This document shows, piece by piece, positions 8,795-42,240 of a DNA stretch of 42,240 nucleotides (positions are counted from its first letter, which is position 1; each line of letters begins with the position of its first letter). The notes below the pieces were generated by a model. The model ran no database searches. It was not told the origin of the DNA and saw nothing but the letters and a program-made list of their open reading frames with translations. A program made the position numbers and the translations under genes. Origin of the DNA: Deltaproteobacteria bacterium (lineage in GTDB: Bacteria; Desulfobacterota; BSN033; UBA1163); contig JAGVBT010000099.1 in the NCBI GenBank assembly GCA_020059605.1, positions 1 to 42,240 on the forward strand, read 5' to 3'.

Positions 8795-9697
8795 TTACAT
8801 CTCCAGCCAGGAGTCGGAGTAGAGGATCTGGCCCATCAGGATTTTCGTGGTTTTGACATAATCAGCTTCTTCTTTGCTTAAGGATTTGAGGTCGATTTGA
8901 TCTTTGTCCATCACGCGATAGATTAATTTTGTAAGATTCTCCCGTTTTCCTCTTGCAAAGATTTTTATTTCCTCATCGAAGGCATCGATGATGGCTGAGG
9001 ACATGCCGTACCGTTCGATCATGATGAGATAGGTCTGATTGAGGATGGGCCTGAGATGATTCGGAGCACCATTGGAAACATTAGAGAGTCCGCAGGTTGA
9101 CCTGATCCCAGGAGCGATCTCCTGGAGGTCTTTGAACATCTTCATAAATTCGATGCAGCCCGGGACCTGAACCTGGCTCTGGGGGCTGGTGATCGGGGTG
9201 ATGATGGGATCGATCCAGATATCTTCATTCGGAATGCCAAATTCCATGGCCTTCTGCATCAGTTCGGCGGCCAGCACGCCCCTCTCATTGGCGTCTCGGG
9301 GAAGGCCGGAAGGGCCCCAGAGGAGGGCAACGACCCCTGCATCGTACTCCTGGGCAAGAGGGAATTTAGCTTCCATGCTCTCGGAACGGGCCATGATGGA
9401 ATTGATGACTGCCTTCCCTTGTTTATTTTTATAGACCCGAAGCCCACCCTCAATGGCTTCGGCATTGATGGTATCGAGAGAGAGGGGGGTGTCCACGACT
9501 TCCTGGACGGTTTTGACGATCCACTCCATCAGTTCTCCACCGCCTTTTCTTGCAGGACCGAGATTGATGTCGAGATAATCCATCCCGGCCCGGGTTTCGG
9601 CGATCGCCATTTCCTGGATGGGACCGGGATCTTTCTCACGCATGGCGGTCCCGATTTTTTTAACGATCACATTGAGGTTTTCACCGATGAGAATCAT
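8795..9697 (-). CDS. acsE: Methyl-THF:corrinoid iron-sulfur protein methyltransferase (AcsE), copy 1
   Basis: AcsE moves the methyl group of methyl-tetrahydrofolate to the cobalt of the corrinoid Fe-S protein. This 301-residue TIM-barrel has the pterin-binding family signatures: MILIGENLNV at the start, YLDINLGPARKGG, TPLSLDTINAEAIEGGL, IWIDPIITP, and GLSNVSNGAPNHLRP with the conserved Asn. The frame is open to 9721, but the ATG at 9697 matches the start of the second AcsE copy and follows a tggag site. It is the last gene of the bacterial-type CODH/ACS operon. Copy 2 at 40726-41598 is clearly divergent, so the pair is not a recent duplication. Confidence 0.93.
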   Translation of the reverse strand: MILIGENLNVIVKKIGTAMREKDPGPIQEMAIAETRAGMDYLDINLGPARKGGGELMEWIVKTVQEVVDTPLSLDTINAEAIEGGLRVYKNKQGKAVINSIMARSESMEAKFPLAQEYDAGVVALLWGPSGLPRDANERGVLAAELMQKAMEFGIPNEDIWIDPIITPITSPQSQVQVPGCIEFMKMFKDLQEIAPGIRSTCGLSNVSNGAPNHLRPILNQTYLIMIERYGMSSAIIDAFDEEIKIFARGKRENLTKLIYRVMDKDQIDLKSLSKEEADYVKTTKILMGQILYSDSWLEM

Positions 9698-9710
9698 AGA
9701 ATCTCCACGA

Positions 9711-9800
9711 CAAGGGTTCAAGGGTTCGAGGATTCAAGGGCTCAAGGGTCTTGAAAATGTTTTCTCGCTTGTCCCCTCGATCCCTGGACCCCTTGAATCC
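9711..9800. repeat. TTCAAGGG palindromic repeat, copy 1
   Basis: The gap between acsC and acsE consists of variants of GGTTCAAGG/GGATTCAAGGG. Arms 9730-9740 and 9790-9800 pair perfectly over 11 bases. A related element lies at 40635-40720 beside the second acsE, so it is a dispersed family rather than a simple terminator. There is no T-run after the stem in the direction of transcription. Confidence 0.65.
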
Positions 9801-9806
9801 TTTTAT

Positions 9807-11153
9807 TTAATTCCCCATTTTAAGGAAGGCGGGGAGATGGGCGGCTTCCCTTGGTCCGATCTGAACCTTCCAGTCCGGGCCAAGCTCTTCTTCAAGATCT
9901 CCGCTGATGACGGCGACCGCCCCGGGGATGACGACCTGCCGGTGTTTCACTTTGTCGGCAATGCCGCTCTTTTTAATAAAGGTCCCAATGGCATCTCCCA
10001 CAAATTTTCCGGCGGCCCAGGCCGTGAGAACGGAGAGCCCTTCGGTGTCCATCACCAGAAGCCAGCAGGAGACCCTGCTGGCTTCGATCTCACCGGAGAC
10101 GATAAAATAAGTCAATGAAAAGTTGACCGTGACCAATATAGGCGAATCCTCCCCGGGATTACCGATGGGATAGATTCCTTCCTGCATCATCATGGGCCGT
10201 TGAGGATCGGTGTAGATATTGAGCCGTTCAACAAGAAGGGGGAAAAGGGTTTCTCCCCGGAAGTCTGACAGGACGATAATTCCAGCATACTTTGCCACAA
10301 AGGTTGCGGCGATGAGAGCTTCCTTCATCGGATCATTCGTCATTTCACAGGGAAAGGTGATGGTCGGAAACCCGAGGGACCGGTTTTGATGGAGGAGCGC
10401 AGCCCGCCGGATAAGAATCTGGTCCTCGAACGCCCTGCGAAGCGTTCTATAGCCGGGATCAAGAACGAGGTCTTTTAAGCCAGCGGCCATCAGTTTCTCC
10501 GCCAACCCGGAGAGGGCTTCAAGATTGTCGGCCTTCACGGTCAGGGGGCATTTGTATTCCAAGGCAAGGCCGGCCAGGGTTTCAAGGTTCCCTTCGTTCA
10601 CCGAATAGATCAATGGGACACGGTCGGAGGAGGCTTTGACGCCTGCCGTTAAAGCCTCGATCTTTTCACTCATCAAGATCATCGCCGCATCTGTCTCGGA
10701 TTTCACCTTTTTTACCAGGGCTTCAAACTTGACCGGGTCTCCGGATTCATTCTTAATGGCGATCAGTTCCGGTCGAAGGGTGAGCCCTACCCGGTCATAC
10801 CTCAGCCCGTTGAACCGCTTCAGGCGGTTTTCAATTTCAGCTTCGGGCATGGCATCGCTCACCAGGATGGCAAAACCGGGTTTGTTCACGAACGTTTTTT
10901 CGTGGCGGAATTGAACGGTCTCCCCCCCGATTTTCAGCACATTTTCACCCGAGCCGATAGCGAGAGGGCGTATGGGCGGGGCCGAAGCTTCGGAGAGCTG
11001 GGCCTTTGTCTCTTCGGACACATAGGGGCAGGAAGCCAGTTCCGCCTTTCCGGCGGCCAGATTCATGGCAAAAGCAAGGCAGGTCGGGACGCCGCACTCC
11101 TTACAATTCGTTTTAGGCAAGAGTTTAAAGATTTGAATCCCGGTTAAACCCAT
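9807..11153 (-). CDS. acsC: Corrinoid iron-sulfur protein large (gamma) subunit, copy 1
   Basis: The gamma subunit carries a [4Fe-4S] cluster and, with AcsD, the cobamide that shuttles the methyl group between AcsE and acetyl-CoA synthase. The cluster ligands are Cys17, Cys20, Cys25 and Cys42 at the N-terminus (TNCKECGVPTC ... SCP). A TIM-barrel fills the middle. The C-terminal part (about residues 320-448) is the corrinoid-binding domain with FSLTYFIVSGEIEASRVSCWLL and TEGLSVLTAWAAGKFVGD. The ATG at 11153 is preferred to the one at 11174 because aaaggag precedes it at the right distance; it gives 448 residues, the usual length. Confidence 0.95.
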   Translation of the reverse strand: MGLTGIQIFKLLPKTNCKECGVPTCLAFAMNLAAGKAELASCPYVSEETKAQLSEASAPPIRPLAIGSGENVLKIGGETVQFRHEKTFVNKPGFAILVSDAMPEAEIENRLKRFNGLRYDRVGLTLRPELIAIKNESGDPVKFEALVKKVKSETDAAMILMSEKIEALTAGVKASSDRVPLIYSVNEGNLETLAGLALEYKCPLTVKADNLEALSGLAEKLMAAGLKDLVLDPGYRTLRRAFEDQILIRRAALLHQNRSLGFPTITFPCEMTNDPMKEALIAATFVAKYAGIIVLSDFRGETLFPLLVERLNIYTDPQRPMMMQEGIYPIGNPGEDSPILVTVNFSLTYFIVSGEIEASRVSCWLLVMDTEGLSVLTAWAAGKFVGDAIGTFIKKSGIADKVKHRQVVIPGAVAVISGDLEEELGPDWKVQIGPREAAHLPAFLKMGN

Positions 11154-11192
11154 GGATGACTCCTTTCCTTTCACATGCCGGATAGCCCTTTA

Positions 11193-11280
11193 AAGTGCCT
11201 AAAGTTATGAGTGCCTAAAGTGCCTAAAATATTTTAAACAAACTTTAGTTCACTTGTAACTTTAGCTCACTTTAGTCACT
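11193..11280. repeat. AGTGCCTAAAGT-type repeats between acsB and acsC
   Basis: The left half has overlapping copies of AGTGCCTAAAGT. The right half has inverted relatives (ACTTTAGTTCACT, ACTTTAGCTCACTTTAGTCACT), so the region can fold into a long imperfect hairpin. It lies in the gap after acsB (read leftward) and might affect mRNA stability or relative expression. No gene. Confidence 0.55.
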
Positions 11281-11281: not shown

Positions 11282-13489
11282 CTACTCAAGAATCGGATCC
11301 ATCGAAAGGGCAGGGTGATTCTTTTCCGTGAGGAAAGGGAGAATCTCCTCTTCGGTGGTGCCGATGGACTCATCCGCAATCCTATCGATGAAATCAGGAA
11401 TGCCAACCTCCTGTGATCGTTTGATCAAACGATCCCTGATCTCATCCTTGAGCATTTTAGGCATCCAGACGAGCCGTTTAAGCCCCCCATCCCCGACCAG
11501 CCACTTTCTTTGCGTGATATTATACTTGCTATGACCGACGAAGCCCGGCGTGACCTGCCCCCCTCCCACTGAACCCGCCAGGGTGGTGAACTTCATCCCG
11601 CAAGGAGTCATCCCCGGAAAGTCGCGGTTGACGGTCATCACACCGTTGCACATCGGAAGCACTGCTGCAATGCATTCGCAGCAGCCGCAGGTGGTCATCG
11701 GATCGTACATCAAACTGTAAAAGTTGTAGTGGTCGATTTTTTGACGGGAAGCCTTAAAAACGAATTCGTTTACGCCCTTCCATTGGCCCAGTTTATCATC
11801 GATGACTTCCCCCTTTGGAACGGGCTGGTTTGGCCCTGTGGGATTAATCTCGAAGGACGCTTTGCAATCCATCCAGTTGTAAGCGCCGCAGAGTCCTGTT
11901 CTTTCCGGGCTGATGACGCATACATGGCTGGGCGCAAAGGACTGGCAGAGGGTGCAGGAATAGAAGGTATCGATGGTCTCATCGGTCATTCCTTCGATGC
12001 GGGCATCCCTCTTCTGGTAAACTTCCCTCGCCTGCGCGAGGACGTGATCGACTTTCTCACGGTCCGTGTAAATCGTCACCTGGACTTTATCGAAGATGGC
12101 TCCGAAGTCCTGGTGAAATTTTGCGTGAAGGATTTTACCGAGATGGGAGAAGCGAAATCCCTTCTCCACAGCTCCTTTACTGATCCTTATCCACGCAATA
12201 TCCCTCTGGCCGATATGCATAACCCCCTGGGCGTAGTTGATGAGATGGTGGATCTGCCTTTCGAGAATCGGTTCAAAATCCTCCTGCATCTGCCGGCCCG
12301 CCACCTCGGCGACAATCGCAATGGGAAGCCGCCCAGGAGATTCCACCTGGTCAAGATCGGGTCCAACGAGGATCACCTTGCCGTCCTCTACTTCATCCAT
12401 GGCCCTGGAAGTGACCCATTCGACCGCATGGGTTCTTCCTCCTCCGCATTCCACGGAGATATCCTCACCCCTGACCCTCTCCCCTTCGAAGGCGGGGCCA
12501 TAAGAGACGGGGATCGGGACTTCTGCGACGGTTACCTTCAGTCCCCTCACTTCCACGGCCCTCTGGACAATCTGGTCATGGGGGATGTTTGAAACAACAT
12601 GTTCATAAGTGCAGACACCCGTGGGCAGGATTTCGGGGATGGGAGTGTCGGCGATTGTCGGGAAGCCCCAGTTGATGGCGCCAGCCGCATTGGCATACCA
12701 TTCGTCCGTGACAAAACCGAGGGGCATGACGAAGGCAAAGGTACGGTCCTTGTTGTAGATCAAGTTATTCCGGAAGTCCCCGGGTTTGACTCCTCCGAAC
12801 GCCATGGCGACCCTGCAGGCAAAGCCGATGGCAAAAACAGCCGCAGAGATATCGGGGCCGAAAGAGACGAGTCTCGTGGGCCATCCGATCTGGACGCCTG
12901 CTTCGACCAGCTGTTCGGAAAACCGTTTTCCTTCGTTTTCTGCGCACATAAAGACATAAAGATTCTTCTCCTGGAGCTCGATGGCGATCCTCTTTGCAAT
13001 TTCCGGATTGGGAGCGGCGCCCACGATGGCGGCAAATCCGGGCGCGGTTCCATCCACAAATTCGACCCCCCGTTTCCGAAAGATAACGTCATCCGCCGCC
13101 CCCAGCCAGATATTATCAGGCAGGGGATCTTCCTGCTTCGAATAAAAATTCGGGTTTTCGAGATAGCGGATCGCTTCGATAACTTCCTCGGCGAAGAAGG
13201 CGGCCATCCCCGCGTCGAGAGCCGGCCCCAGGTAGGGAAGGTGGACTTTTTCCTTGACCAGCGGCGGCAGAAGAGACCGCATTCTCTCGAGAACAGGCTT
13301 GACATCGCCCAATTTCCGGATCGGGACTCCGAGAATGGCATAGATGATCGGCAAATAATACGCCGTATTGGGAAAGCCGATCTCCTGATCAGGCCCCCAT
13401 TTCTTCAAAGCCTCTTCATACTTCTTCTCAGCCCTTTCAACAATCTTATGGGCTCCTCTGATAGCGGCAGAAGCAATGATCTTGGACAC
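11282..13489 (-). CDS. acsB: Acetyl-CoA synthase, full-length bacterial type
   Basis: The 735-residue catalytic subunit that condenses CO, a methyl group and CoA to acetyl-CoA at the Ni-Ni-[4Fe-4S] A-cluster. Its ligands are all present: Cys512, Cys515, Cys524, Cys534 (SCTLCQSFAPSHVC ... GLCGAYNW) and the Cys601-Gly-Cys603 motif holding the distal Ni. This is the same spacing as the Moorella enzyme. The first roughly 310 residues are the domain that binds the CODH subunit and forms the CO tunnel; the archaeal-type copy at 34941 lacks it. The start is a GTG at 13489 with a ggaggt site. Its partner is the CooS encoded just upstream, separated by a repeat-filled 296-bp gap. Confidence 0.97.
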   Translation of the reverse strand: MSKIIASAAIRGAHKIVERAEKKYEEALKKWGPDQEIGFPNTAYYLPIIYAILGVPIRKLGDVKPVLERMRSLLPPLVKEKVHLPYLGPALDAGMAAFFAEEVIEAIRYLENPNFYSKQEDPLPDNIWLGAADDVIFRKRGVEFVDGTAPGFAAIVGAAPNPEIAKRIAIELQEKNLYVFMCAENEGKRFSEQLVEAGVQIGWPTRLVSFGPDISAAVFAIGFACRVAMAFGGVKPGDFRNNLIYNKDRTFAFVMPLGFVTDEWYANAAGAINWGFPTIADTPIPEILPTGVCTYEHVVSNIPHDQIVQRAVEVRGLKVTVAEVPIPVSYGPAFEGERVRGEDISVECGGGRTHAVEWVTSRAMDEVEDGKVILVGPDLDQVESPGRLPIAIVAEVAGRQMQEDFEPILERQIHHLINYAQGVMHIGQRDIAWIRISKGAVEKGFRFSHLGKILHAKFHQDFGAIFDKVQVTIYTDREKVDHVLAQAREVYQKRDARIEGMTDETIDTFYSCTLCQSFAPSHVCVISPERTGLCGAYNWMDCKASFEINPTGPNQPVPKGEVIDDKLGQWKGVNEFVFKASRQKIDHYNFYSLMYDPMTTCGCCECIAAVLPMCNGVMTVNRDFPGMTPCGMKFTTLAGSVGGGQVTPGFVGHSKYNITQRKWLVGDGGLKRLVWMPKMLKDEIRDRLIKRSQEVGIPDFIDRIADESIGTTEEEILPFLTEKNHPALSMDPILE

Positions 13490-13785: not shown

Positions 13786-15744
13786 TTAGGCAGCATCCAG
13801 TTCTCTTCGTTTGGCCATATCAAAGAGGACGCGCTCCCTGGCCTTATCGATGCCGAGGGCTTTCCTCTTCTTATCGATATGCTCGATCATCAATTTCGCC
13901 GCTTTCATCGGATCGGGCTCGAACCCCCATTTCCCTTTTAAACTATTTTCAAATTCCTCGAAGAGAAATTTCGTCACCTCCTCGCTTCCGGTGGTCGGCC
14001 AAGTCACGCCGAATACCGTGAAGATCCCTGAAGCGACGAAATAGTGGCCGATGGCGAGTGCCTTTTCGCTCATCCACTCCAGCGCCGCACCGGCCGCAGG
14101 AAGATCACTGATATCATCGCCCAGACCTCCGTCCTTAACGACGGCCGTGGCCGCCATCAAGATCCGGCTGTTGTCCACACAGGCCCCCATGTGGAGAACG
14201 GGCGGGATGCCTACAGCCTCACAAACCGAAGCCAGACCTTCTCCGGCATATTGTCTTGCAGCTTCCGGGGTGAGGAGGCCGCCTTTGCCTGCAGCCATTG
14301 CACTGCAACCGGTGACCAGGACAATGACATCGTTCTTGATCAACTCCTTGATGAGAGTAAAGTTGGGATCATCATGAGTGACGCGGGCATTGTTACAGCC
14401 GACGACACCCGCAATCCCTCGAATGCGGCCGTTGATGATATTGTCATTGAGGGGCCGGTAAGAGGCCCGGAACATACCGCCCAGGAGGTAATTGATCGTC
14501 TCATGGCTGAACCCGACAACCGTATCGGTCGTCTCGGAGGGGATATCCGCATTGGGTTTGCGGTTCTTAAAGTTTTCAATGGCCTCCATTAAAATTTTCT
14601 TTGCCACATCGGGAGCGCGATGCTCATCAAATTCGATATGCATGGCCCCTTCGATCTTGGCCCTGGGAGAGGTGGTGATGAGCTTGGTGTGGTAGCATTT
14701 GGCGACCTGGGCGAGGGACTGCATTTCGCATTGAACATCGACCACCATGGCGTCGACGACACCGGTGACAATGGCCAATTCCTGCTGCAAAAAATTTCCT
14801 CCCACTGGAATGCCATGGCGCATCAAGACCTCATTGGCGGAACAGCACATCCCTGTGAGATTGATTCCTTTTGCGCCCACCGATCGGGCGGCCTTCTGTA
14901 TTTCGGGATCCTGTAACACTCCGACGATGATCTCGGGAAGAAGGGGTTCGTGTCCGTGGATGACCAGATTGACCTCATCCTTTTTAAGGACGCCGAGGTT
15001 CATCTTTCCGTAGACAGGGACGGGTGTTCCGAAAAGGACATCCTGGAGTTCGGTGGAGATCATCGAACCTCCCCATCCATCGGCTAAAGCGCACCGGGCA
15101 GCCGAATGGAGGAGGCTCTTGTATTCCTGGTCCACCCCCATGCAGGTTCGATGCAACAGCTCCACCACCTCCCGATCGATCCCCCGTGGCATGATCCCCA
15201 GATTTCTCCAGATCTCCTGCCTTTTGAGGGGAGCCCTTTTGGCAAGGAGGATTTCCCCTTCCTGGCGTCCGAATTCAGATAGAGCCTTCTGGCCCACATC
15301 GATGGCAATCTCCTGGACGGATCGGTTTCCAATCTCAACCCCGAGGTCCATTGCCAGTTGAAGGAGTTTCTGTTCGTCCTTGATTTGAAAGCCGGGGATT
15401 TTGCCTTTGGCGGTGGCCAGAAAGACTTCGGTCACTCCCCGTGCATGGTCGGAGTGGGCGGCTGTGCCTGCAGCTACCATCCGTGCAAAATTGCGGGCAG
15501 AGATCGTCTCTGCCGTTGCGCCACAAAGGCCCACCCTTCGCGACTTCTCCTCTCCCTTCTTTTTAGGGGCAGGAACACGGCAGGGGCCCATGACACAGGT
15601 TTTACAACAACTTCCCTCTGCCCCGATGGGACAGGGCTTCATCGCGTCGGCACGGTCAAAGATGGTTTCACACCCATCGGCCTGCGCTTTCTTCAACATT
15701 TTGACCGTTGCGGGATCGATACTCTTTTTTTCTATATCAGACAT
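13786..15744 (-). CDS. cooS: Carbon monoxide dehydrogenase catalytic subunit, bacterial type
   Basis: The Ni-Fe CODH (also called AcsA), interconverting CO and CO2. Counted from the ATG at 15744 (aaggagc upstream; the longer frame to 15780 lacks a better site), the C-cluster ligands are His263, Cys300/301, Cys339, Cys450, Cys480 and Cys522. The N-terminal Cys-rich segment (Cys38-Cys74: CPIGAEGSCCKTCVMGPC and GLCG) holds the B and D clusters that carry electrons to the surface. Length is 652 residues, normal for CooS/AcsA. It sits between acsD and acsB, the arrangement expected for a bifunctional CODH/ACS rather than a stand-alone CODH. Confidence 0.96.
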   Translation of the reverse strand: MSDIEKKSIDPATVKMLKKAQADGCETIFDRADAMKPCPIGAEGSCCKTCVMGPCRVPAPKKKGEEKSRRVGLCGATAETISARNFARMVAAGTAAHSDHARGVTEVFLATAKGKIPGFQIKDEQKLLQLAMDLGVEIGNRSVQEIAIDVGQKALSEFGRQEGEILLAKRAPLKRQEIWRNLGIMPRGIDREVVELLHRTCMGVDQEYKSLLHSAARCALADGWGGSMISTELQDVLFGTPVPVYGKMNLGVLKKDEVNLVIHGHEPLLPEIIVGVLQDPEIQKAARSVGAKGINLTGMCCSANEVLMRHGIPVGGNFLQQELAIVTGVVDAMVVDVQCEMQSLAQVAKCYHTKLITTSPRAKIEGAMHIEFDEHRAPDVAKKILMEAIENFKNRKPNADIPSETTDTVVGFSHETINYLLGGMFRASYRPLNDNIINGRIRGIAGVVGCNNARVTHDDPNFTLIKELIKNDVIVLVTGCSAMAAGKGGLLTPEAARQYAGEGLASVCEAVGIPPVLHMGACVDNSRILMAATAVVKDGGLGDDISDLPAAGAALEWMSEKALAIGHYFVASGIFTVFGVTWPTTGSEEVTKFLFEEFENSLKGKWGFEPDPMKAAKLMIEHIDKKRKALGIDKARERVLFDMAKRRELDAA

Positions 15745-15804
15745 GGGATGCTCCTTTATATGCCCCCTGTCCCCCCTCATGATGAAAGGGGGGATTAAGT
15801 TTGA

Positions 15805-16752
15805 TTATTTCGCCATGAAATCGGAGATCATTTCCCGAACCAGTTGGATTGCTTCCGGATGTCTCATAACGAGAATATCCGCCCCTGCAAGAAGGAGGAT
15901 CACTGCCGTTACGGCTTCCATGAGGACCCCTCTCTTTTGGGGATTGCCTAAATCAGGCGCCTCTTCATCCGATGCCTTGGCCTCCTTTGTCTTCCAGACC
16001 TCTTTGGCCATATTACAGATGATGGGAAACTGAAGCCTTTCATCCTGCTGGGTGAGGGCGGCCATTCGATCCCTTTCCATGACGGAATAAGTGTATTCGA
16101 TCCCGTATCCCAGTCCGCCCGTGGTCGGATCGACAATGATCCGGCTGTCGGGAATTCCCAGGTTTCCCAACAGGATGTTGAGTTGTTTGGCGAGGTTGAT
16201 GTCGATGGGAGAAGAAGCGATGACCGTATGACCGTATCCGATGGCTCCTGCTCCGACCTGCTTGTAGTTCCCTTCCACAATGGGCCCGATGATCAGGTTC
16301 ATCCCGTCGCAGACCTCAGCCACCTTTCGAAGGACATCTCCATCTTTGTCCGCATTGCCACTCCCCCATATGATCAAGGGGACATCGATAGAGGCGGCGA
16401 CCTTTTTAGCCGTCTCCGCCGCCTCCTCAGCGGTTCGATTTAAACCATTTGGATCCGTGCTGACCAGCTGTAATGCAATCAGTTCAGCTCCGAATGGTTC
16501 GATACATTTTTTTGCCCAAGCAACCGGATCATGAACCACATCCCTGAACGGTTCAAGGACGGTCTCGGGCCAATCCTCGGGAGGGGCGTCATAGACCTCC
16601 ATGGCAATCCGGGGAGGATGAGGCATCTCTCCCTCAAAGAGATACAAGGGATAGGAAGTTTCTCCTCCGATGGTCACCGCTTTTGGCCCTTTTCCGAGGG
16701 TCACCTTTTTTATCGTTCCCGTATAAGTAATTCTGGGTATCTCGAATGGCAT
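15805..16752 (-). CDS. acsD: Corrinoid iron-sulfur protein small (delta) subunit, copy 1
   Basis: A 315-residue TIM-barrel partner of AcsC in the corrinoid protein. Typical segments are EMPHPPRIAMEVYDAPPEDWP, LIIWGSGNADKDGDVLRKVAE, DINLAKQLNILLGNLGIPDSRIIVDPTTGGLGYGIEYTYS, and the C-terminal ADILVMRHPEAIQLVREMI. It starts at an ATG with a gggagg site and lies 60 bases before cooS, in the same operon. Residues 275-285 contain a short acidic insertion (KASDEEAPD) lacking in the second copy. Confidence 0.95.
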   Translation of the reverse strand: MPFEIPRITYTGTIKKVTLGKGPKAVTIGGETSYPLYLFEGEMPHPPRIAMEVYDAPPEDWPETVLEPFRDVVHDPVAWAKKCIEPFGAELIALQLVSTDPNGLNRTAEEAAETAKKVAASIDVPLIIWGSGNADKDGDVLRKVAEVCDGMNLIIGPIVEGNYKQVGAGAIGYGHTVIASSPIDINLAKQLNILLGNLGIPDSRIIVDPTTGGLGYGIEYTYSVMERDRMAALTQQDERLQFPIICNMAKEVWKTKEAKASDEEAPDLGNPQKRGVLMEAVTAVILLLAGADILVMRHPEAIQLVREMISDFMAK

Positions 16753-16995: not shown

Positions 16996-17103
16996 AAGAT
17001 GCCTCCTTTTTAAAATCTCCTAAATTTTATCGTAACACTCGATTCTCAAGTTGTCCATGAGTTAGCGTTATGACTTAGCGTATCATATTCCTTCGGCGGA
17101 TCC

Positions 17104-17117
17104 TTGACTTAAATCAA
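17104..17117. promoter_or_regulatory. FNR/CRP-type palindrome upstream of the bacterial CODH/ACS operon
   Basis: TTGAC-TTAA-ATCAA matches the FNR consensus TTGAT-N4-ATCAA at nine of ten fixed bases. It lies about 110 bases upstream of the GTG at 16995 and immediately beside the truncated response-regulator duplicate. Oxygen- or redox-linked control is plausible but no such regulator is visible here. Confidence 0.35.
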
Positions 17118-17576: not shown

Positions 17577-17706
17577 TAAATCCTGAAATAACAGTAATTT
17601 CTAAACTTTATTTGCTGCGGTTTAGTTGTTGAAAATTTCTTTCTTGGGGCCGTTCAAATTTTAGGTGTTCCGGTTCCCAGGCCTGAATGGAGAGAAGGAG
17701 GAAGCC

Positions 17707-33098: not shown

Positions 33099-33103
33099 GA
33101 GTT

Positions 33104-34926: not shown

Positions 34927-34940
34927 TGGAACCCTCCTTT

Positions 34941-36149
34941 TTATGCTTGGCCAGTGACCCAAGGATGACCGACCCGATTCAAGAACTCGGTCAACTCGTC
35001 GACATTTTTCACATCCTCTTCTGTGGCAATCTTATCAAGCATGCCCGCCTCTTCCAGCACATCCTTCACCTGCTCCTTGACTGATTTGGGCAACCAGACG
35101 ATCCTCTTGAGTCCTCCGTCGGTCTTGAGAAATTTTTTCGATCTCATGTAAGAGATCGCCATACCCAGCATTCCCTCATTCTGCCTTCCGCCCGAGGCTT
35201 CCCCCGCGATTCCTGAAAACTTCTGGCCGTTGACCGCCTCACCGAGGAAATCCCGATGGACAATACCAAAGGCATCGACCTCCGGAATGTAGAAGCAAAT
35301 GGCCTGGAAGCATCCGCAGGAAGTGTGAGGGGTTTCCAGCGCGCTATGGAGGCAGAAGACACTGTTTGCCCCGAGGGACTTCTCTGCCACGATGGCATTG
35401 ACCCCAGAATAGATAAACTTCTCTGCATCCAGGAGATCCCCTTTCTGAACGGCGAATTGTGGACCTTCCGGATCCATCTTATAAGCGGCCCTTCCATCGA
35501 ACCAGTTGATGGCCCCGCAAAGAGAGACTCTCTCCGGAGTCACGACGCAGACATGGGTGGGGGCAAAGGATTGACAGAGTGAACATCCATAGAATTCGTC
35601 CACTTCTTCCTCGGTGATCCCTTTCAGTCGGTCATCCCTCTCCTTGTATACCTTCCGCGCCTCAAGGACTTCTTTCTCAACTTTTTCAGGATCGGTGATG
35701 AAGGTGATTTGAATCTTTTCGATGATGGAGAGTTCGTTTTTATAAAGCATGACGAGAACCTTTCCGATCTCCTCAAGGGAGTTGAGGCCCTTTTTAAAAC
35801 TGTCTTTGTGGAGTCTCATCCAGATCTCATCCCTCTGGGCCATGTGCCAGAACCCTTCAATATAGTTGATGTACATGTGAACGCGGCGTTCAAAGACGGG
35901 CTCCATATCTTTTTCCAACTGCTCGCCCGCGACTGCGATCTTGATAAAGATGGGAACGGAAGCCCCCTCTTCAAAATCCTTGATATCCTTTCCGATGATC
36001 TCGACCTTTTCGTCTTCCACTTCGTCGGCGGGTGTGACGGTCACCCATTCGGCTTTGAACTTATGCTTCGGTCCTCCAAATTCGATTTGAAAATCTTCCT
36101 TTCTTACGGTTTCGCCCTCATACTGAGGTCCCACATCGACTGAAAACAT
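34941..36149 (-). CDS. cdhC: Acetyl-CoA synthase, short archaeal-type (CdhC)
   Basis: A 402-residue acetyl-CoA synthase starting at an ATG with an aaaggagga site. Its first residue aligns with about residue 325 of the full-length AcsB at 11282, so the whole N-terminal CODH-binding domain is absent, as in archaeal CdhC. The A-cluster ligands are complete: Cys189, Cys192, Cys201, Cys211 (GCSLCQSFAPTHVC ... SLCGAINW) and Cys278-Gly-Cys280. The C-terminal extension of methanogen CdhC is missing. It must meet its CODH partner (CdhA/CdhB) differently from the bacterial enzyme. Confidence 0.95.
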   Translation of the reverse strand: MFSVDVGPQYEGETVRKEDFQIEFGGPKHKFKAEWVTVTPADEVEDEKVEIIGKDIKDFEEGASVPIFIKIAVAGEQLEKDMEPVFERRVHMYINYIEGFWHMAQRDEIWMRLHKDSFKKGLNSLEEIGKVLVMLYKNELSIIEKIQITFITDPEKVEKEVLEARKVYKERDDRLKGITEEEVDEFYGCSLCQSFAPTHVCVVTPERVSLCGAINWFDGRAAYKMDPEGPQFAVQKGDLLDAEKFIYSGVNAIVAEKSLGANSVFCLHSALETPHTSCGCFQAICFYIPEVDAFGIVHRDFLGEAVNGQKFSGIAGEASGGRQNEGMLGMAISYMRSKKFLKTDGGLKRIVWLPKSVKEQVKDVLEEAGMLDKIATEEDVKNVDELTEFLNRVGHPWVTGQA

Positions 36150-36164: not shown

Positions 36165-36698
36165 TTAATTCAAGCTATTGATTAAAATTTCTAAGTATTC
36201 TTTCCATTTATCGGCCTTCAGATTGGCAAGGGAGAAACTGGCATGGGGATAAACATAGGGGCAGAGCGTGACCGTTTTTAGATGGGGGGCATAGTGTTTC
36301 AAGGTGGAGAGGCCCTGGTTTCCAAAGTCCGTCCTCATCCCCAAAAACATCACCACGTCATGGTTGCCCTGCTTCTTGACTCCCTTCCAGTTAGGATCCT
36401 TCAGATGGTTGATGATCTCAACGGCATCATAAGCCGAATCCGGAACCACGCCGAGCTCGAGCAATTTCTTTTTTGTGTGAGCTGTTGCGCATATGGCGGC
36501 CCCCAGGGCTTTCGCAATTTCCACCCCATATTGGACGGCCAGCTTTTCACCCATTGCGATATCGAGACATCTTGGTCCAAAGACAACCAGGGGTCTCTCT
36601 GCTTTCTTAATAATTTTTCCTAAAGCTTGAGGGTCTTCGATTACTCTGCATCCTTTTAATCCCGTTAAGACATTGACATGATGTAATGGTATGCTCAT
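36165..36698 (-). CDS. cdhB: CODH/ACS epsilon subunit, archaeal-type (CdhB)
   Basis: A 177-residue Rossmann-like (DHS-type) protein matching CdhB, which forms a heterotetramer with CdhA in methanogens and is thought to hold a flavin near the electron exit. Family patterns include PLVVFGPRCLD, AICATAHTKKKLLELGV, HDVVMFLGMRTDFGNQGLSTLKHYAPHLKTVTLCPYVYPHASFSLANL. It has no role in bacterial AcsA/AcsB complexes. It lies between the DUF166-like gene and cdhC with short gaps, so it belongs to the operon. Confidence 0.92.
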   Translation of the reverse strand: MSIPLHHVNVLTGLKGCRVIEDPQALGKIIKKAERPLVVFGPRCLDIAMGEKLAVQYGVEIAKALGAAICATAHTKKKLLELGVVPDSAYDAVEIINHLKDPNWKGVKKQGNHDVVMFLGMRTDFGNQGLSTLKHYAPHLKTVTLCPYVYPHASFSLANLKADKWKEYLEILINSLN

Positions 36699-36714: not shown

Positions 36715-37407
36715 CTATGGCTTTTTTCTTTTGAGCGCCTCTTCCACGGCCAGCTTAACCTGCAAGCCCGCGTGGTGCATCAGCGTATCTCCCAATTCTT
36801 GATCCATGACCATCGTGGCCATGCAGGGATGGTTGTGGTGAAGGATGCCTGAACTTTCCACGGCATCCTTGATGTGGGTTCCGATCAGATTTTCGGCCAC
36901 GTATCGGGTATTCCCGCAGGGAGCGCCCCGGATGACCCTGACTTCCCTGACTTTATCTTTTTCGATCTCGACCTCCACTTCCGGCCTCCCGAAATATTTG
37001 ACGAATTCGAGGATCAACTCGTTTTTCGTCATTTTCTCAGTCAGGGTGCAGAAGGTCATCGGATGAACGAGTTCGATCCCGTCTTTTTCCAACTTTTTTT
37101 TAATCTGTCGTGCAAGCCCCGTGGTGATAAAAGCCTTGCTGTCGATAGGGGTAATCACTGCACGGGCTCCGATCTCCTTGATGAAGAGGGGGATCATTTC
37201 GGCCACGACCGGATGCTCCTGGACCGAGACCAACAGGTCGCAGGAGGGAAGACCTTCAGGGAGGTAATCCGACAGTTCATCGACAAAGGTGGGCAGCTTT
37301 TTCGTAAAGTGGTAAGCCAAAACCTGCCATCCGGCCGGAGAATGCCCTCCGATATATTCCCAGAATCGCTTTCCGTAATCCCCTTGATACAGGATGAGCA
37401 CTTTCAT
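36715..37407 (-). CDS. DUF166-like protein coupled to CdhA
   Basis: A 230-residue soluble protein of the DUF166 type (in methanogens sometimes annotated as thymidylate synthase-like). Its ATG overlaps the cdhA stop as ATGA, so it is translated with CdhA. Conserved-looking sites are DLLVSVQEHPVVAEMIPLF, RGAPCGNTRYVAENLIG and HHNHPCMATMVMD, each with a Cys and the latter with three His, suggestive of metal or Fe-S binding. The function is unknown. Position between cdhA and cdhB suggests a maturation or assembly role for the Ni-Fe enzyme, but that is inference. Confidence 0.8.
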   Translation of the reverse strand: MKVLILYQGDYGKRFWEYIGGHSPAGWQVLAYHFTKKLPTFVDELSDYLPEGLPSCDLLVSVQEHPVVAEMIPLFIKEIGARAVITPIDSKAFITTGLARQIKKKLEKDGIELVHPMTFCTLTEKMTKNELILEFVKYFGRPEVEVEIEKDKVREVRVIRGAPCGNTRYVAENLIGTHIKDAVESSGILHHNHPCMATMVMDQELGDTLMHHAGLQVKLAVEEALKRKKP

Positions 37408-39701
37408 TTGACCACCGCATCAATCGGGATATTGCTTTCATAAGTGCCGATCAAAGTGGGCAGGGTCAACAGCGGTTTCGGATGCCATCCGACGCTCTTG
37501 AGGTATTCAACGACCTCCTTCTTGTAGACGATCGGGATGTCCTTATCATTTCTTACAAAATTCTGGAGGTCATCCGGAAGGCTTCCCATGTGCTGTTTGT
37601 AGAGGGAGATATAGTGATTCAATTTGAGCTGTCTTCCCTGGGCGGTATCATTCTTCCGGATACAGAGTTTTGCCATGGTGATAATGGCCCTCTCTTTGCT
37701 TTCGACGACGATGGAGAGATGTTCCGGAGAAGGCTCTTCTGTATTGATGAGTTCCCTCTTCCTTCCGTCCATCACGGTCCAGTCGTCTTCTTCCTTTCTG
37801 GAGAGGTAGAGCCTTCGATATTTAGCCGAATGGGGACCGAGGACCACCGGGATGCCGAGCCGGTTGCATCCCGTCCCGATGGAGAAGGCTTTCTGTGAAT
37901 AGGCGCCCCAGGCCAGGCCAACCGCTCCGACCCGGTTCAGGATATAGTCGGCAATCACTTCATAGTTCGCCCGAAGGGGAAGCTTTGCAAAGATGTTGGC
38001 GACCTTCATGGCGGCGCCGGTGATGTGAGCATTGGCCACACAGCTTCCCACATTCAACACTCCGCCCGCATCAAAGTCAGGTTTAAATTTATCGTAGATG
38101 GTTTTCCCTTCGGCGTCTTTCTTCATTCCAGCAGCCATGGCCGCGCATCCCGACAAGACAACAATATATTTTCGCTTGGCAAACTCTTCAGCAATCTCGG
38201 CGATCTCTTCTATCTCTTCGGGATAGTTGGAGCACCCGACAATGGCGATAATTCCCGGGATCGTACCGAGGACAATGGGGGCGCCTACCTTTCTGATTTC
38301 CACATCATGAATGGGGCCTCTTCCCACCCGGATATTAAAGGTGTCCCATGAAGCAGCAGCCTGCATGATCGTAATGATGGGAACTCCTTTCGCGCACTCC
38401 TGCTCGCATTTTCCGCAGCCGATGCATTTTGCGAAGAGATCGGCCATCTTTTCGAATTTTCCCTCTTTAACCTCCGAAACGGCGCCTGAGATATCGAGAA
38501 GGTTGGGGCAGACCCTATCGCAGAGCATACACTTTTTACAAGCATCCGCCAACTCAGTCGCCTTCTCTTTCGTGACGATCTCTTTCTTTCTGCCCTTGGC
38601 CACGATCGGAAGCACCTTTGCAGCCACTTCTCCGGCCTTGTCCACATCGCGAATGAGCACCTGTTTTCCTTCCTGGGTGATCATCCGGACGATTTCGTCG
38701 ATTTCCTTGTGAGTCACATCATCGAGGCCGTAACTGATCTTGTCCGAGGTGGCGATGAGGGCGCTTCCGGAGGCCCTCGCCAGGTCGGGGATATCGCAAC
38801 GGACGCACTGTTCATCCGTGATGATTAAATCGGCAATCCCTGTTTTTAAAAAGAACAACTGCTTGGAGAGCGGGCCGATGATCTTTGTTTTGTCCGAATA
38901 CCGGGTGTTATCGATGGCGGTGCAGCATATGCCCGTAACCTCCACCTGGTCGTAGGTTCCTGCCTTCATAAAATAGTCGATCATGACGGTGGCCACTGCC
39001 GCATTATGGCCTACGCAGGTGACAACCGGTTTTGACTTATCCACCGCCCCCCAGCCCAGAGCGGCAAGGGGAGTCTCCGCCACAGAGGTCGGAAACTTAA
39101 AACCTATGGTCTGGGCGATATCGGCCGCCTCCATAGCAACATGATCCAACATTCCGATATGGAGTGATTTTGATTCAAAATCAAGCTCATTTCCTTCCTG
39201 TCCGAAGTGGGTTGCTGAGACACCATGGATAATTCCCTTTTCGACATATTCAATGGCCTTTTTCAAGTCCCCTAATGTCTCAGGTTTCAGTCCCATGACC
39301 GTTCGGATATGAGGCGCTTCTACGGCAACCTGTCCCCCCAGATCAATTTTATGATTTTCACCATGTTTCTCAATAAGGTAATCAATCAGATGGCGGGCAT
39401 GGGCGCCATGGGCTGAACAACCCATCAGAGCGAACATTAATGCCCATCTTCCCTGCTGGCCGGAAATATTGATACCGCAGGCGCCTTTATTGTCCCCTGT
39501 CAAATCACACTTCCCGTAGGTGCAGAAACAGCAGAGGTCACAAAAAGGCGCATAGAACGGTTTGTAAGTCTTTAACAACCTCATATCCCACCGGCGCAAA
39601 TCGGACATTTCAGGCATGGAAGTCGGGCCAATGGGCTCCCAGTTATCTTCAGCCCTTATCGTCTTATTGATCTCTTCTTGTTTCGACTGTCCTTTACTCA
39701 T
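37404..39701 (-). CDS. cdhA: CODH alpha subunit, archaeal-type (CdhA)
   Basis: A 765-residue Ni-Fe CO dehydrogenase of archaeal type. The N-terminal Cys-rich segment (FCDLCCFCTYGKC ... ACG) holds the B and D clusters. C-cluster ligands are His232, Cys259/260, Cys299, Cys490, Cys519 and Cys554. Unlike bacterial CooS it contains an inserted two-cluster ferredoxin (Cys388, 391, 394, 398 and Cys426, 429, 432, 436), which are the E and F clusters of CdhA. It pairs with CdhB and channels CO to CdhC. The ribosome site is gaaaggag. Comparison with CooS at 13786 shows the same fold but separate families. Confidence 0.96.
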   Translation of the reverse strand: MSKGQSKQEEINKTIRAEDNWEPIGPTSMPEMSDLRRWDMRLLKTYKPFYAPFCDLCCFCTYGKCDLTGDNKGACGINISGQQGRWALMFALMGCSAHGAHARHLIDYLIEKHGENHKIDLGGQVAVEAPHIRTVMGLKPETLGDLKKAIEYVEKGIIHGVSATHFGQEGNELDFESKSLHIGMLDHVAMEAADIAQTIGFKFPTSVAETPLAALGWGAVDKSKPVVTCVGHNAAVATVMIDYFMKAGTYDQVEVTGICCTAIDNTRYSDKTKIIGPLSKQLFFLKTGIADLIITDEQCVRCDIPDLARASGSALIATSDKISYGLDDVTHKEIDEIVRMITQEGKQVLIRDVDKAGEVAAKVLPIVAKGRKKEIVTKEKATELADACKKCMLCDRVCPNLLDISGAVSEVKEGKFEKMADLFAKCIGCGKCEQECAKGVPIITIMQAAASWDTFNIRVGRGPIHDVEIRKVGAPIVLGTIPGIIAIVGCSNYPEEIEEIAEIAEEFAKRKYIVVLSGCAAMAAGMKKDAEGKTIYDKFKPDFDAGGVLNVGSCVANAHITGAAMKVANIFAKLPLRANYEVIADYILNRVGAVGLAWGAYSQKAFSIGTGCNRLGIPVVLGPHSAKYRRLYLSRKEEDDWTVMDGRKRELINTEEPSPEHLSIVVESKERAIITMAKLCIRKNDTAQGRQLKLNHYISLYKQHMGSLPDDLQNFVRNDKDIPIVYKKEVVEYLKSVGWHPKPLLTLPTLIGTYESNIPIDAVVK

Positions 39702-39713: not shown

Positions 39714-40607
39714 TCAAGAAATTAATTTTTTAACCAGTTTCATACTTTCCGGGTGCCGCATGATCACCAGGTTTGCCCCGGCTAAAATCAGGGTGAAAGC
39801 CGTCAGGGCTTCCCAAAGTATCCCCTGAGTTTTATCTTCCTTTGCTTCTTTTGTCTTCCAGCAGTCCTTTCCGATATTGGCAACCATAGGAGCCTTCATC
39901 ATCTCGTCATTATGGATGACCGCCACCTGTTTGACCCGCTCCATGATCGAGAAAGAGTAGTCAATCCCATAACCGATGGCTGCGGATAAAGGGTCGATGA
40001 CGACCCGTTCTTTTGGAAAGAACTTGGCGAGCTTCACGTTGAGTTCCTTGCAAAGATTGATATCCAGGGGGCTCTGGGGGATGATGCTGTGTCCTCCCTC
40101 CAGTGCGGCCTTGGCGATTTCCTCATAGTTTTCTTTCACCAGGGGACCGAGGAGGAGGTTTGTACCTGTGCAGACCTTTGCAATTTCCACCAGCGCTTTG
40201 GCATCTTTGTCCTTGTCTCCAACCCCCATCACGATGAGAGGAACGGCGATCTGATCGGCGATCTTCTTCACATTTTCAGCGATTTTGGCTACATCCGCCT
40301 GATCACTGTCAAGGCTCGCCAGGTAGAGGGAGATGAGATCGGCGCCAAACTGTTTGACGGATTTATTGGCCCAGGCGACCGGGTCAGTGAAGACATCCGC
40401 ATAAGCTGATCGAAGGTGTTCGGGCCAACCTTCCGGAGGGGCATCGAAGACTTCGAGAGCAAATCGAACGGGTATTCCCACCTGTCCTTCAAAACCATGA
40501 AAGGGGAGGGTTTTTTCCCCTCCGATCTTCACCGCTTTCCCTTCAGGGCCGATCGCTACCTCTTTAATGTCACCCTTGTAAGGTTCAAAAAAGTCGTTGA
40601 GCTGCAT
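39714..40607 (-). CDS. acsD: Corrinoid iron-sulfur protein small (delta) subunit, copy 2
   Basis: A 297-residue TIM-barrel homologous to AcsD/CdhD. It is shorter than archaeal CdhD (which has extra N-terminal sequence) and close to bacterial AcsD in length, so this cluster mixes archaeal CODH/ACS subunits with a bacterial-sized delta subunit. Family patterns: VRFALEVFDAPPEGWP, PLIVMGVGDKDKDAKALVEIAK, PLDINLCKELNVKLAKFFPKERVVIDPLSAAIGYGIDYSFSIMERV, ANLVIMRHPESMKLVKKLIS. It starts with an aaaggagg site and stops 12 bases before cdhA. Confidence 0.94.
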   Translation of the reverse strand: MQLNDFFEPYKGDIKEVAIGPEGKAVKIGGEKTLPFHGFEGQVGIPVRFALEVFDAPPEGWPEHLRSAYADVFTDPVAWANKSVKQFGADLISLYLASLDSDQADVAKIAENVKKIADQIAVPLIVMGVGDKDKDAKALVEIAKVCTGTNLLLGPLVKENYEEIAKAALEGGHSIIPQSPLDINLCKELNVKLAKFFPKERVVIDPLSAAIGYGIDYSFSIMERVKQVAVIHNDEMMKAPMVANIGKDCWKTKEAKEDKTQGILWEALTAFTLILAGANLVIMRHPESMKLVKKLIS

Positions 40608-40725: not shown

Positions 40726-41598
40726 TTAGGTTTCCAGCCAGGAGTGGGAGTAGAGTGATCTCCCCATCAGCACGTTGACCGTCTTCACAATATCAGCCTC
40801 TTTCTTGGGGAGGCTGGATGGATCAATCTCCTCATCCATGGCTCGATAGACCAGATCCCTGATCTCAGGCAGCTGCCCTTTGGCGAGCTTTACCAGCTCC
40901 TCATCAAAGCTATCCACGATGGCAGAAAAACAATTATACCGATCGAGCATTACCAGGCAGATCCGGTTCAGGATTCCCCTTAAGTGCTCCGGAGCCCCAT
41001 TGGAGAGGTTGGATAGCCCCAGAGTCGATTTAGCTCCCGGACAGACATCCTGGAGAATCTTCATAAACTCAAAGAGCTCTACAACCTGCGGTTGATCGAC
41101 GGAAATGGGCATCATGATGGGGTCCACCCATATCCTTTCATTGGGAATTCCGATCTCATTGGCATAGGCGACCGTCTCCATAATCGCCTCTGCTCTCGAT
41201 GAGGAATCGGTTGGTATCCCTGCATCGATCAACACCGAAAGGACAACATCACAATTATACTTAACTGCCAGGGGAAGCATCTTGTCTTTGCTCTCCTGTT
41301 TGCCTGATGCAGAATTGATCAACGGAGGAATTTTGCAAACAGAGAGGCCAGCTTCCATGGCAACCGGATTGGTCGTATCCAGCGAAAGGGGTTTATTGAC
41401 CGCCTCCTGGATGACCCCTGCGAGCCACTTCATGATATCGGGGTCTTTCCTTGCAGGCCCGACATTAAGATCAATATAATCTGCGCCAGCTTTTGCCTGT
41501 TTGATTGCAAGTTCCTGCAGTGGTTTTTCATCCCTTTCTTTCAGGGCATTTGAGACGACTTTTGACAGAATTTGAATATTTTCCCCAATTAGAATCAT
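40726..41598 (-). CDS. acsE: Methyl-THF:corrinoid iron-sulfur protein methyltransferase (AcsE), copy 2
   Basis: A 290-residue TIM-barrel with the same signatures as copy 1: MILIGENIQIL, YIDLNVGPARKDP, KPLSLDTTNPVAMEAGL, IWVDPIMMP, GLSNLSNGAPEHLRG. An aaaggagg site precedes the ATG. It is placed in front of the archaeal-type genes, so the bacterial folate-linked methyl donor feeds the archaeal-type synthase here, rather than tetrahydromethanopterin as in methanogens. A promoter-like sequence with a Rex-like palindrome lies upstream. Confidence 0.94.
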   Translation of the reverse strand: MILIGENIQILSKVVSNALKERDEKPLQELAIKQAKAGADYIDLNVGPARKDPDIMKWLAGVIQEAVNKPLSLDTTNPVAMEAGLSVCKIPPLINSASGKQESKDKMLPLAVKYNCDVVLSVLIDAGIPTDSSSRAEAIMETVAYANEIGIPNERIWVDPIMMPISVDQPQVVELFEFMKILQDVCPGAKSTLGLSNLSNGAPEHLRGILNRICLVMLDRYNCFSAIVDSFDEELVKLAKGQLPEIRDLVYRAMDEEIDPSSLPKKEADIVKTVNVLMGRSLYSHSWLET

Positions 41599-41614
41599 GC
41601 GTTCCTCCTTTTTA

Positions 41615-41709
41615 CCCCGTTAGAAATAATGCCCCACTGCTCTGCAGCGGTGTTACATTTCAGAACTATTCCGGCGGGACTTAATAGCCTGCTGGAATTT
41701 CTAACGGGG
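41615..41709. repeat. CCCCGTTAGAAAT palindromic element, copy 3
   Basis: A 95-bp element from CCCCGTTAGAAAT to ATTTCTAACGGGG, with 12 to 13 perfectly paired terminal bases and an internal CTGCTCTGCAG palindrome. It lies just upstream of the acsE ribosome site. Its ends match those at 26857-26917. Confidence 0.72.
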
Positions 41710-41731
41710 TTAACGAAATATTTCACAAATA

Positions 41732-41761
41732 GTTGTAAAACTTTTTACAAAGTGTTGTCAA
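41732..41761 (-). promoter_or_regulatory. Candidate promoter with Rex-like palindrome before the second acsE
   Basis: On the - strand TTGACA (41761-41756) and TACAAC (41737-41732) are 18 bases apart, a plausible sigma-70 promoter about 130 bases before acsE. The perfect inverted repeat TTGTAAAA-CT-TTTTACAA (41733-41750) lies in the spacer. It matches the Rex operator form TTGTGAA-N4-TTCACAA except for one symmetric change per half. If bound by the NADH-sensing repressor Rex it would silence this operon when NADH is low. No rex gene is in the window. Confidence 0.45.
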
Positions 41762-41781
41762 TGGAATTAGTACGCTTTTTC

Positions 41782-42240
41782 TCATGAAAATATCTTTGTC
41801 AGGGCCTCCCTTAATTTTGTGACAGAGGGACTTGACTCTTCCAGATTTAACATGGGGATCCCTCTCAGTTCATGGTCAATAATATTGTTATCTTCGGGGA
41901 TGATTTGGAGAAGGTTGAGGTGCAGTTTTTCGACCTCCTCCAAAATCTGTGCAGGAGGGTCATGGGCAACGCGGTTGATAAGCAGGTAGGTCTTTTTGAT
42001 ATTCAAACCCAATTCGCTGACCAGGTCTTCGAGTTTCCTGCATGTCCTGACTCCCTTCATGGATGGGTCGGAGACCAAAAAGAGTACATCGAGACTCCCA
42101 TTGGTCCTCCTTGAGATATGTTCCATGCCGGCTTCGTTGTCGATGACCACATTTTTATAGTTGGAGGCGAGTTTTTCAATGTAATTACGGATGACGGAAT
42201 TCGGATAACAGTAACAACCCGGCCCTTCCCCCTGCCCCAT
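41782..42240 (-). CDS. cooC: CODH maturation ATPase CooC, C-terminal part (runs off right edge)
   Basis: The visible 152 residues are the C-terminal portion of a CooC-type MinD/NifH-like ATPase that helps insert Ni into the C-cluster. GQGEGPGCYCYPN holds the family's CxC motif, then a Walker-like VVIDNEAGMEHISRRT segment, SDVLFLVSDPSMKGVRTC-type strand and IPEDNNIIDHELRGIP. The N-terminal P-loop is beyond the window, so the in-frame ATG here is internal. It is placed upstream of acsE, as expected for a maturation gene of this cluster, though a promoter may separate them. Confidence 0.9.
   Translation of the reverse strand: MGQGEGPGCYCYPNSVIRNYIEKLASNYKNVVIDNEAGMEHISRRTNGSLDVLFLVSDPSMKGVRTCRKLEDLVSELGLNIKKTYLLINRVAHDPPAQILEEVEKLHLNLLQIIPEDNNIIDHELRGIPMLNLEESSPSVTKLREALTKIFS

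Follow-up and report, generated by a model that had tools for sequence, protein, structure and literature searches.

A bacterial and an archaeal-type hybrid CODH/ACS gene set on one contig of a Desulfobacterota genome

Two complete gene sets in the window

The window, which is the whole stretch of DNA analyzed, is the entire contig JAGVBT010000099.1 (C18; 42,240 bases) of a Deltaproteobacteria bacterium assembly (GCA_020059605.1, handle G000; 4.38 Mb in 167 contigs, completeness 93.7%, contamination 3.74%). It carries two gene sets for carbon monoxide dehydrogenase/acetyl-CoA synthase (CODH/ACS) on a single contig without any N. One is the conventional bacterial type, and the other is a hybrid of archaeal-type CdhA, CdhB, and CdhC with AcsC, AcsD, and AcsE. 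A previous reading made from the sequence alone (the sequence-only reading) had proposed that one organism has two different CODH/ACS machines, that known families account for each, and that each comes with its own acsC, acsD, and acsE. The matches to curated profiles bore this out, with both AcsE proteins under the cut-off of their best model. The named subunits were found as open frames essentially where that reading had placed them, but the bacterial set ends at 16752 and not at 16995. Its genes are as follows.

8795..9721, minus strand: acsE1, methyltetrahydrofolate:corrinoid methyltransferase (NF005719, 231 bits, under the cut-off of 259; in the tree with the bacterial sets of congeners)
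9807..11174, minus strand: acsC1, corrinoid Fe-S protein large subunit (NF003195, 621 bits; tree; 4Fe-4S motif at residue 24)
11282..13489, minus strand: acsB, full-length bacterial acetyl-CoA synthase (NF040764; A-cluster motif intact)
13786..15780, minus strand: cooS/acsA, Ni-CODH (TIGR01702; C-cluster, B/D, and catalytic Lys/His motifs)
15805..16752, minus strand: acsD1, corrinoid Fe-S protein small subunit (NF003377, 574 bits; tree)

By family profile matches, these genes form a complete bacterial CODH/ACS in the order acsE-acsC-acsB-cooS-acsD (8795-16752). AcsB was matched over positions 1-704 of the 705 of NF040764 (1115 bits, cut-off 800), and the N-terminal domain is present together with intact A-cluster motifs (from residue 512, TTCGC at 599). 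CooS scored 657 bits against TIGR01702 (cut-off 478), and its C-cluster ligands, B/D cysteines, and catalytic Lys/His motifs were all found by PDB-chain alignment and motif check. As in AcsABCDE systems, this CooS-type CODH is clustered with AcsC, AcsD, and AcsE, the last of these scoring under the NCBIfam cut-off.

The hybrid set is also complete and also on the minus strand (33556-41598; cdhE, cdhC, cdhB, DUF166, cdhA, cdhD, acsE).

33556..34962, minus strand: cdhE/acsC2 (NF003195, 547 bits; tree)
34941..36149, minus strand: cdhC, short acetyl-CoA synthase (TIGR00316; A-cluster intact; tree)
36165..36698, minus strand: cdhB, epsilon subunit (TIGR00315, 108.8 bits, cut-off 101.2)
36715..37407, minus strand: DUF166 protein between cdhA and cdhB (PF02593, 196 bits)
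37404..39701, minus strand: cdhA, archaeal-type Ni-CODH (TIGR00314; alignment to PDB 8riu; motifs)
39714..40607, minus strand: cdhD/acsD2 (NF003376, 356 bits; tree)
40726..41598, minus strand: acsE2 (NF005719, 212 bits, under the cut-off of 259; tree)

CdhA scored 1034 bits against TIGR00314 (cut-off 781), and its C-cluster ligands and two extra CdhA-specific 4Fe-4S motifs were found; the B-cluster cysteines are conserved in the alignment to PDB 8riu. CdhC (402 residues; 570 bits against TIGR00316, cut-off 356) lacks the AcsB N-terminal domain and keeps its A-cluster motifs (from residue 189, TSCGC at 276). CdhA, CdhB, and CdhC are thus of archaeal type, and the bacteria-specific AcsE lies within the cluster, although under the NCBIfam cut-off. 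CdhD passed NF003376 and failed TIGR00381, and the trees hold no archaeal CdhD or CdhE; the PDB chains matched by AcsC and AcsD are presumably bacterial corrinoid iron-sulfur protein subunits. The corrinoid-protein 4Fe-4S motif was found in both AcsC copies.

The sequence-only reading had held all Ni and Fe ligands to be intact in both sets. PDB-chain alignments and motif checks, over the residues that we take to be the ligands, agreed: the A-cluster cysteines of AcsB and CdhC and the C-cluster ligands of CooS and CdhA were found, and no mutated active site was seen in either set. A strict A-cluster pattern fitted 54 of 87 AcsB/CdhC proteins; the 33 misses comprised 31 CdhC proteins that keep TSCGC with a variant first motif and two copies of one Dehalococcoidia AcsB. 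Both enzymes should be catalytically competent, as judged from their residues, and one genome holds both complete sets with intact active-site motifs.

The DUF166 gene recurs between cdhA and cdhB in several Dehalococcoidia/Chloroflexi sets (L020, L021, L025, L026, L031, L039), and this shared position suggests an accessory role for the protein in hybrid CODH/ACS.

Relationship and distribution of the two sets

Relatives were surveyed in a sample of 59 genomes including that of the window, of which 10 belong to its genus and seven are other members of its family. Trees were calculated by a quick method from 47 AcsC, 49 AcsD, 46 AcsE, and 53 AcsB/CdhC rows. Duplicates of G genomes (L016-L019, L022, L035, L043), small loci (L044-L077, L127 on), loci without a recognizable cdhA, cdhC, acsB, or cooS (hence the absence of the G005 cdhE), and proteins with less than 75% coverage (hence the absence of genes cut at stretch ends) were excluded. 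Long-branch warnings apply to the joining of L114 and L028 in the AcsC tree and to the PDB CdhC row in the AcsB tree, and the AcsE tree was read from the branches listed.

In all four trees, the two copies of the window fell into different clades. Identity between the sets was 46% for AcsC, 45% for AcsD, 47% for AcsE, and 40% for the AcsB C-terminal part and CdhC, ruling out recent duplication; identity to the corresponding sets of congeners was about 83-97% (CdhB down to 70%). The bacterial copies grouped with those of the same genus, then of the same family (G012, G014, G016), and then of the same class (G018, G019), which would agree with vertical descent at the family and class level. The archaeal-type copies grouped with those of whichever congeners were present in each tree and then with other bacterial archaeal-type sets, many of them from Chloroflexota. 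The archaeal-type sets of other genera of the family (G010, G011, G013, G015) formed a separate clade near Chloroflexi RBG_13_51_36 and G045, which suggests that the family acquired such sets on two or more occasions.

CdhC was found in all 10 genomes of the genus, and AcsB was found in addition in five of them (G000, G003, G006, G007, and G002, where the copy is cut by a contig end). Among the other seven family members, four had CdhC only and three AcsB only. A phylum sample of 395 genomes (even draw, seven from the genus) was scored by the best two candidates per genome. CdhA (E up to 1e-150) was matched in 29 and AcsB or CdhC (E up to 1e-120) in 250 of them; by per-genome counts, CdhA, CdhC, and full AcsB occurred jointly in three (G000, G003, G007), all of the genus. 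Carriage of both types is rare within the sampled phylum.

Other combinations were observed among the genomes compared. Seven genomes of family f41 (G078, G113, G145, G173, G199, G223, G245) encode divergent proteins resembling CdhA (about 830-850 residues; six of these genomes have two copies), together with a single AcsB/CdhC-family match that is AcsB-like in score and with no separate CdhC match. CdhA-like matches were also obtained in an eighth f41 genome, G266, which does not appear among the AcsB/CdhC matches listed. This family perhaps holds another mixed CODH/ACS arrangement. Contig C213 of G001 (3-2228) encodes a second, different CdhA, 63% identical to that of the window; the contamination of this genome is 6%, and the contig is perhaps foreign. 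The Dehalococcoidia locus L028 (G065) has a hybrid set followed by a full-length AcsB (8648-10864; 36% identical, 670 bits, cut-off 800), with an extra AcsD, an extra AcsC, and an enoyl-CoA hydratase family gene, and L029 (G066) has the same AcsB in pieces. Dehalococcoidia was rejected as a second phylum with two working sets, as the AcsB of L028, without the CGC motif, looks degenerate.

Junction, methyl branch, and site of the bacterial cassette

Further features of the window lie between the two sets and on the far side of the hybrid set.

17058..17492, no strand: putative inversion junction (homology break against congeners; deleted copy of response-regulator gene ends)
17665..18582, plus strand: methylenetetrahydrofolate reductase (MTHFR)-family protein, mthfr17 (PF02219)
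18818..20857, plus strand: fusion of a receiver-like domain, MetF, and MetV C-terminal domain (PF02219, PF12225; weak PhoB-type receiver match)
25083..25955, minus strand: MTHFR-family protein of the methyl branch (PF02219; kept beside the archaeal-type set in congeners)
26155..26829, minus strand: MetV-like protein (PF12225)
26927..28540, minus strand: class III-type cytochrome c, HdrC-like ferredoxin, and NarI-like membrane protein of the MTHFR module (PF02085; PF13183; PF02665 under cut-off)
28774..29697, minus strand: MTHFR of the methyl branch (PF02219, 137 bits)
30155..33577, minus strand: electron module of NuoG-N-terminus-like ferredoxin and NuoF- and NuoE-like proteins (family matches)
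41782..42240, minus strand: MinD/CooC-type ATPase, C-terminal part (both MinD matches under cut-off)

The sequence-only reading had regarded the two sets as one locus. In all four congeners that carry both (G002, G003, G006, G007), the sets lie on separate contigs, and their proximity in the window looks like the product of an inversion. The neighbors of acsD1 in these four genomes are a small open reading frame (ORF), m244 (244 residues; only partly matched in G006), and Acd, a 693-residue protein with the Pfam domains of nucleoside diphosphate (NDP)-forming acyl-CoA synthetases; mthfr17 has another conserved gene group beside it in G002 and G005. In the window, homology to the bacterial-set locus ends at 17057, and homology to the methyl-branch/archaeal-type locus resumes at 17493. 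The neighbors that both loci lack in the window stand side by side on contig C5 of its genome, those of mthfr17 at 98430-103088 and those of acsD1 at 103190-105898. Because the junctions are reciprocal and lack a shared repeat, as an inversion leaves them (no exact match longer than 11 bases between the 500- and 550-base regions compared), the side-by-side placement is most likely the product of a chromosomal inversion in this genome.

Wrong joining of two loci by the assembly is very improbable. In its favor, the junction was not seen in any congener examined, and at 17115-17268 it holds two copies of 77-78 bases, 96-97% identical to their source, which reproduce both ends of the region around the response-regulator gene (22495-22572, 22899-22972) with the middle missing; an exact match of at least 60 bases recurs in another part of the window. 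Against this artefact stand the reciprocal junction on C5 without a shared stretch and the presence of both sets in four other metagenome-assembled genomes (MAGs) of the genus anyway. Contamination or a chimera was likewise disfavored by the recurrence in congeners, the absence of N, and the reciprocal junction. Since the contig is free of N and the pairing recurs in congeners, the presence of both sets in one organism is not a chance or binning artefact. Short dispersed repeats (about 23-170 bases) were observed across many G000 contigs, including near both sets (13576-13683 and about 30230-30330), and might favor rearrangements.

Between the sets lie two histidine kinases, one response regulator, and five MTHFR-family genes (17665, 18818, 25083, 26155, 28774), with cytochrome, HdrC-like, and NarI-like genes interspersed. 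The fusion at 18818-20857 (plus strand) is 679 residues long, and its receiver-like domain apparently lacks the usual acidic pocket and phospho-acceptor Asp; it is kept at 89-90% in G002 and G005, and nothing relevant on such a fusion was found in the literature search. At the other end, the window overlaps contig C56 of its genome by 99 identical bases and appears to continue into it (folD, acsV, fhs). The fhs of C56 passes its curated cut-off, and no formate dehydrogenase was recognized among the C56 frames scanned. Eight of the 10 genus genomes have fhs, in single copy each, and it adjoins the archaeal-type set in six of these eight by coordinates, the window's genome being counted in the eight. 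The archaeal-type set is the one beside most methyl-branch genes.

In two genomes of g4, another genus of the family (G012, G016), the bacterial set directly adjoins the same MetV-cytochrome-HdrC-NarI-MTHFR module. A second type of MTHFR module in G003 consists of other-type MetF and MetV, an FlpD/MvhD protein, and two FAD or Fe-S proteins, which we take to be HdrA-like. MetF and MetV matches at the same levels adjoin the archaeal-type sets of G006, G007, and G009 and the bacterial set of G014, where spacing suggests the remainder of this module. Among close relatives, the type of CODH/ACS thus does not appear to be tied to the kind of reductase module. It is rather doubtful that the genus and family make up a natural swap experiment of two CODH/ACS versions and two reductase modules in four combinations, in which two-set species would draw on their sets under different conditions or in different directions, with a single methyl branch in common.

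The site of the bacterial cassette could be compared among congeners. The order in G003 is Acd, m244, small ORF, acsD-cooS-acsB-acsC-acsE, about 4.8 kb, tsa, apbE, had, pgm, and the tsa-apbE-had-pgm flank corresponds to window positions 1-3777. Five congeners have no AcsB, and in four of them the cassette was missing from this site: the order is apbE, tsa, about 1 kb, m244, Acd in G008; Acd, m244, about 1.6 kb, tsa in G004; and pgm, had, m244, Acd in G001 and G009, where tsa and apbE are missing too. The simplest reading would be that the cassette was inserted here once and later lost from some genomes.

Interpretation and comparison with known systems

We consider it probable that an acquired hybrid enzyme serves the main pathway, that the bacterial set is being lost, that an inversion joined the two loci, and that the two enzymes are used redundantly or conditionally. 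The hybrid CODH/ACS (CdhABC with AcsC, AcsD, and AcsE) would have been acquired by horizontal transfer at the base of the genus, with archaea as the presumed source according to the literature. It would now occupy the main Wood-Ljungdahl locus of the genus, flanked at one end by fhs, acsV, folD, and a gene of CooC type and at the other by the NuoEF-like and MTHFR modules. The conventional set would be a vertically inherited, self-contained five-gene cassette located elsewhere, beside the NDP-forming acyl-CoA synthetase, that some congeners have lost and others retain. In the window's genome, an inversion would have brought this cassette beside the methyl-branch end of the hybrid locus. Both sets would be expressed and would carry the same reversible reaction, redundantly or depending on conditions, with one shared methyl branch.

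Several points weigh against parts of this reading. One presumed archaeal sequence (PDB 9c0s, which we take to be archaeal) represents the archaea, in one tree only, and the AcsV and FolD of C56 score under their curated cut-offs. The empty site could not be assessed in G005, where no Acd match was found. On the tree of the archaeal-type set, the presence of the cassette required three changes (two to three in bootstrap), and on the unrooted tree of 10 MAGs the presence label was no more clustered than when shuffled (205 of 500 as low). A second tree (Acd, m244, HK2, mthfr25), with different and mostly weak branching, gave four changes (431 of 500 as low). Change counts on an unrooted tree of 10 MAGs cannot separate loss from gain. 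The bacterial set of genus g4 (G012, G016, G014) lies at the MTHFR module, a different site, so that the set either changed sites or was transferred.

This different locus in g4 and the patchy presence among congeners would also fit gain instead of loss, with some congeners taking up the cassette from related genera at the site where it now stands. Such a gain is unlikely: the genus copies stand together in the trees as sister to same-family copies, and flanks and gene order agree among G002, G003, G006, and G007 toward acsD, and among the window, G003, G006, and G007 toward tsa, which suggests one insertion before any loss.

With respect to function, CODH/ACS catalyzes reversible acetyl-CoA synthesis and cleavage, and the direction is not readable from sequence. 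The sequence-only reading had suggested opposite directions, one set fixing CO2 and the other oxidizing acetyl-CoA. We found no support for this suggestion and regard it as improbable. The electron modules beside the archaeal-type set (the NuoEF-like genes and the cytochrome/NarI-like MTHFR module) and the NDP-forming acyl-CoA synthetase as ancestral neighbor of the bacterial set would suit it. However, dsrA, expected in the genome of a sulfate-reducing acetate oxidizer, had no match in the 93.7% complete genome of the window and was over cut-off in two of the 10 genus genomes (G004, G008) and in none of the other four two-set genomes. Sulfate-linked acetyl-CoA oxidation is therefore not indicated, and one usual reason to assume acetyl-CoA oxidation is removed. 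In addition, the window's genome yielded one fhs, and in half of the genus the hybrid is the only set.

It is possible, though less likely than shared use, that the sets divide labor by CO2/CO supply while running in the same direction, the hybrid at low CO2 or high pH owing to a higher affinity and the bacterial enzyme at higher CO2. The isolate names of two congeners begin with CROMO, which we take to denote a serpentinization site, but those of other congeners begin with K_DeepCast and Yes70, presumably samples from a lake and from mineral water, and CdhC is common to all 10 genus genomes. This is the best-formed alternative, proposed in passages of PMC9751293 for serpentinite homoacetogens, among them Firmicutes members with both sets. 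The properties of the hybrid remain unknown according to a passage of PMC7325909, and kinetic data for either enzyme were not found. Redundant or condition-dependent use would be the most economical idea.

A common view of CODH/ACS is that of an ancient core enzyme passed on mainly by inheritance. Among the close relatives studied here, some have the bacterial type, some the hybrid, and some both; an empty site can be recognized, and the reductase modules vary as well. The replacement of CODH/ACS thereby becomes testable within one genus, and the genomes offer natural pairs to ask what the hybrid does better.

Hybrid CODH/ACS of CdhABC with AcsCDE is described in passages of PMC6305446 for NPL-UPA2 Unc8, Chloroflexi RBG_13_51_36, and Candidatus (Ca.) Desulforudis audaxviator; hybrid sets in bacteria also appear in passages of PMC7325909 and PMC9751293, and CdhA-type enzymes of Chloroflexota and Desulfobacteriota in part of PMC13240472. 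Like the hybrids in those passages of PMC6305446, the window has CdhA, CdhB, and short CdhC with AcsC, AcsD, and bacteria-specific AcsE in one cluster, and the RBG_13_51_36 locus (L033) falls among the bacterial archaeal-type sets in our trees. Unlike them as there described, the window cluster adds DUF166, NuoEF-like genes, and a large methyl-branch module and belongs to a genus of Deltaproteobacteria/Thermodesulfobacteriota. The L033 set is likewise followed by NuoEF-like genes, and the archaeal-type set in Dehalococcoidia loci by NuoE/NuoF-like genes.

The bacterial set resembles that of Desulfobacterota in PMC12827605, where the parts consulted infer vertical inheritance: both have an AcsA-E cluster, in the same phylum by name, and our trees agree with vertical descent at the family and class level. 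The terms CdhC and hybrid occur 0 times in the main text of that paper. The CooS OGP75751.1 of RBG_16_49_23 (G003) is a clade reference, clade G by its position in a list, in a passage of PMC11338639.

A limited search of open papers, by titles and the starts of abstracts, returned no description of both sets in this genus or phylum. Passages of PMC9751293 report Firmicutes of Hakuba and The Cedars with a hybrid and a conventional AcsABCDE in the same organism, and the window's genome likewise has one hybrid and one conventional set. For Ca. Desulforudis audaxviator, the passages of PMC6305446 say only that two different clusters are present. The word unusual in the sequence-only reading was therefore too strong in general, with the Firmicutes pairing in print, although it holds for the sampled phylum. 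Compared with the Firmicutes and Ca. Desulforudis as those passages present them, our case lies in another phylum and is documented by presence and absence among congeners, an empty site, and a probable inversion onto one contig. The pairing of a hybrid with a conventional set is thus already known in a few other bacteria, and the window adds a new case in another phylum.

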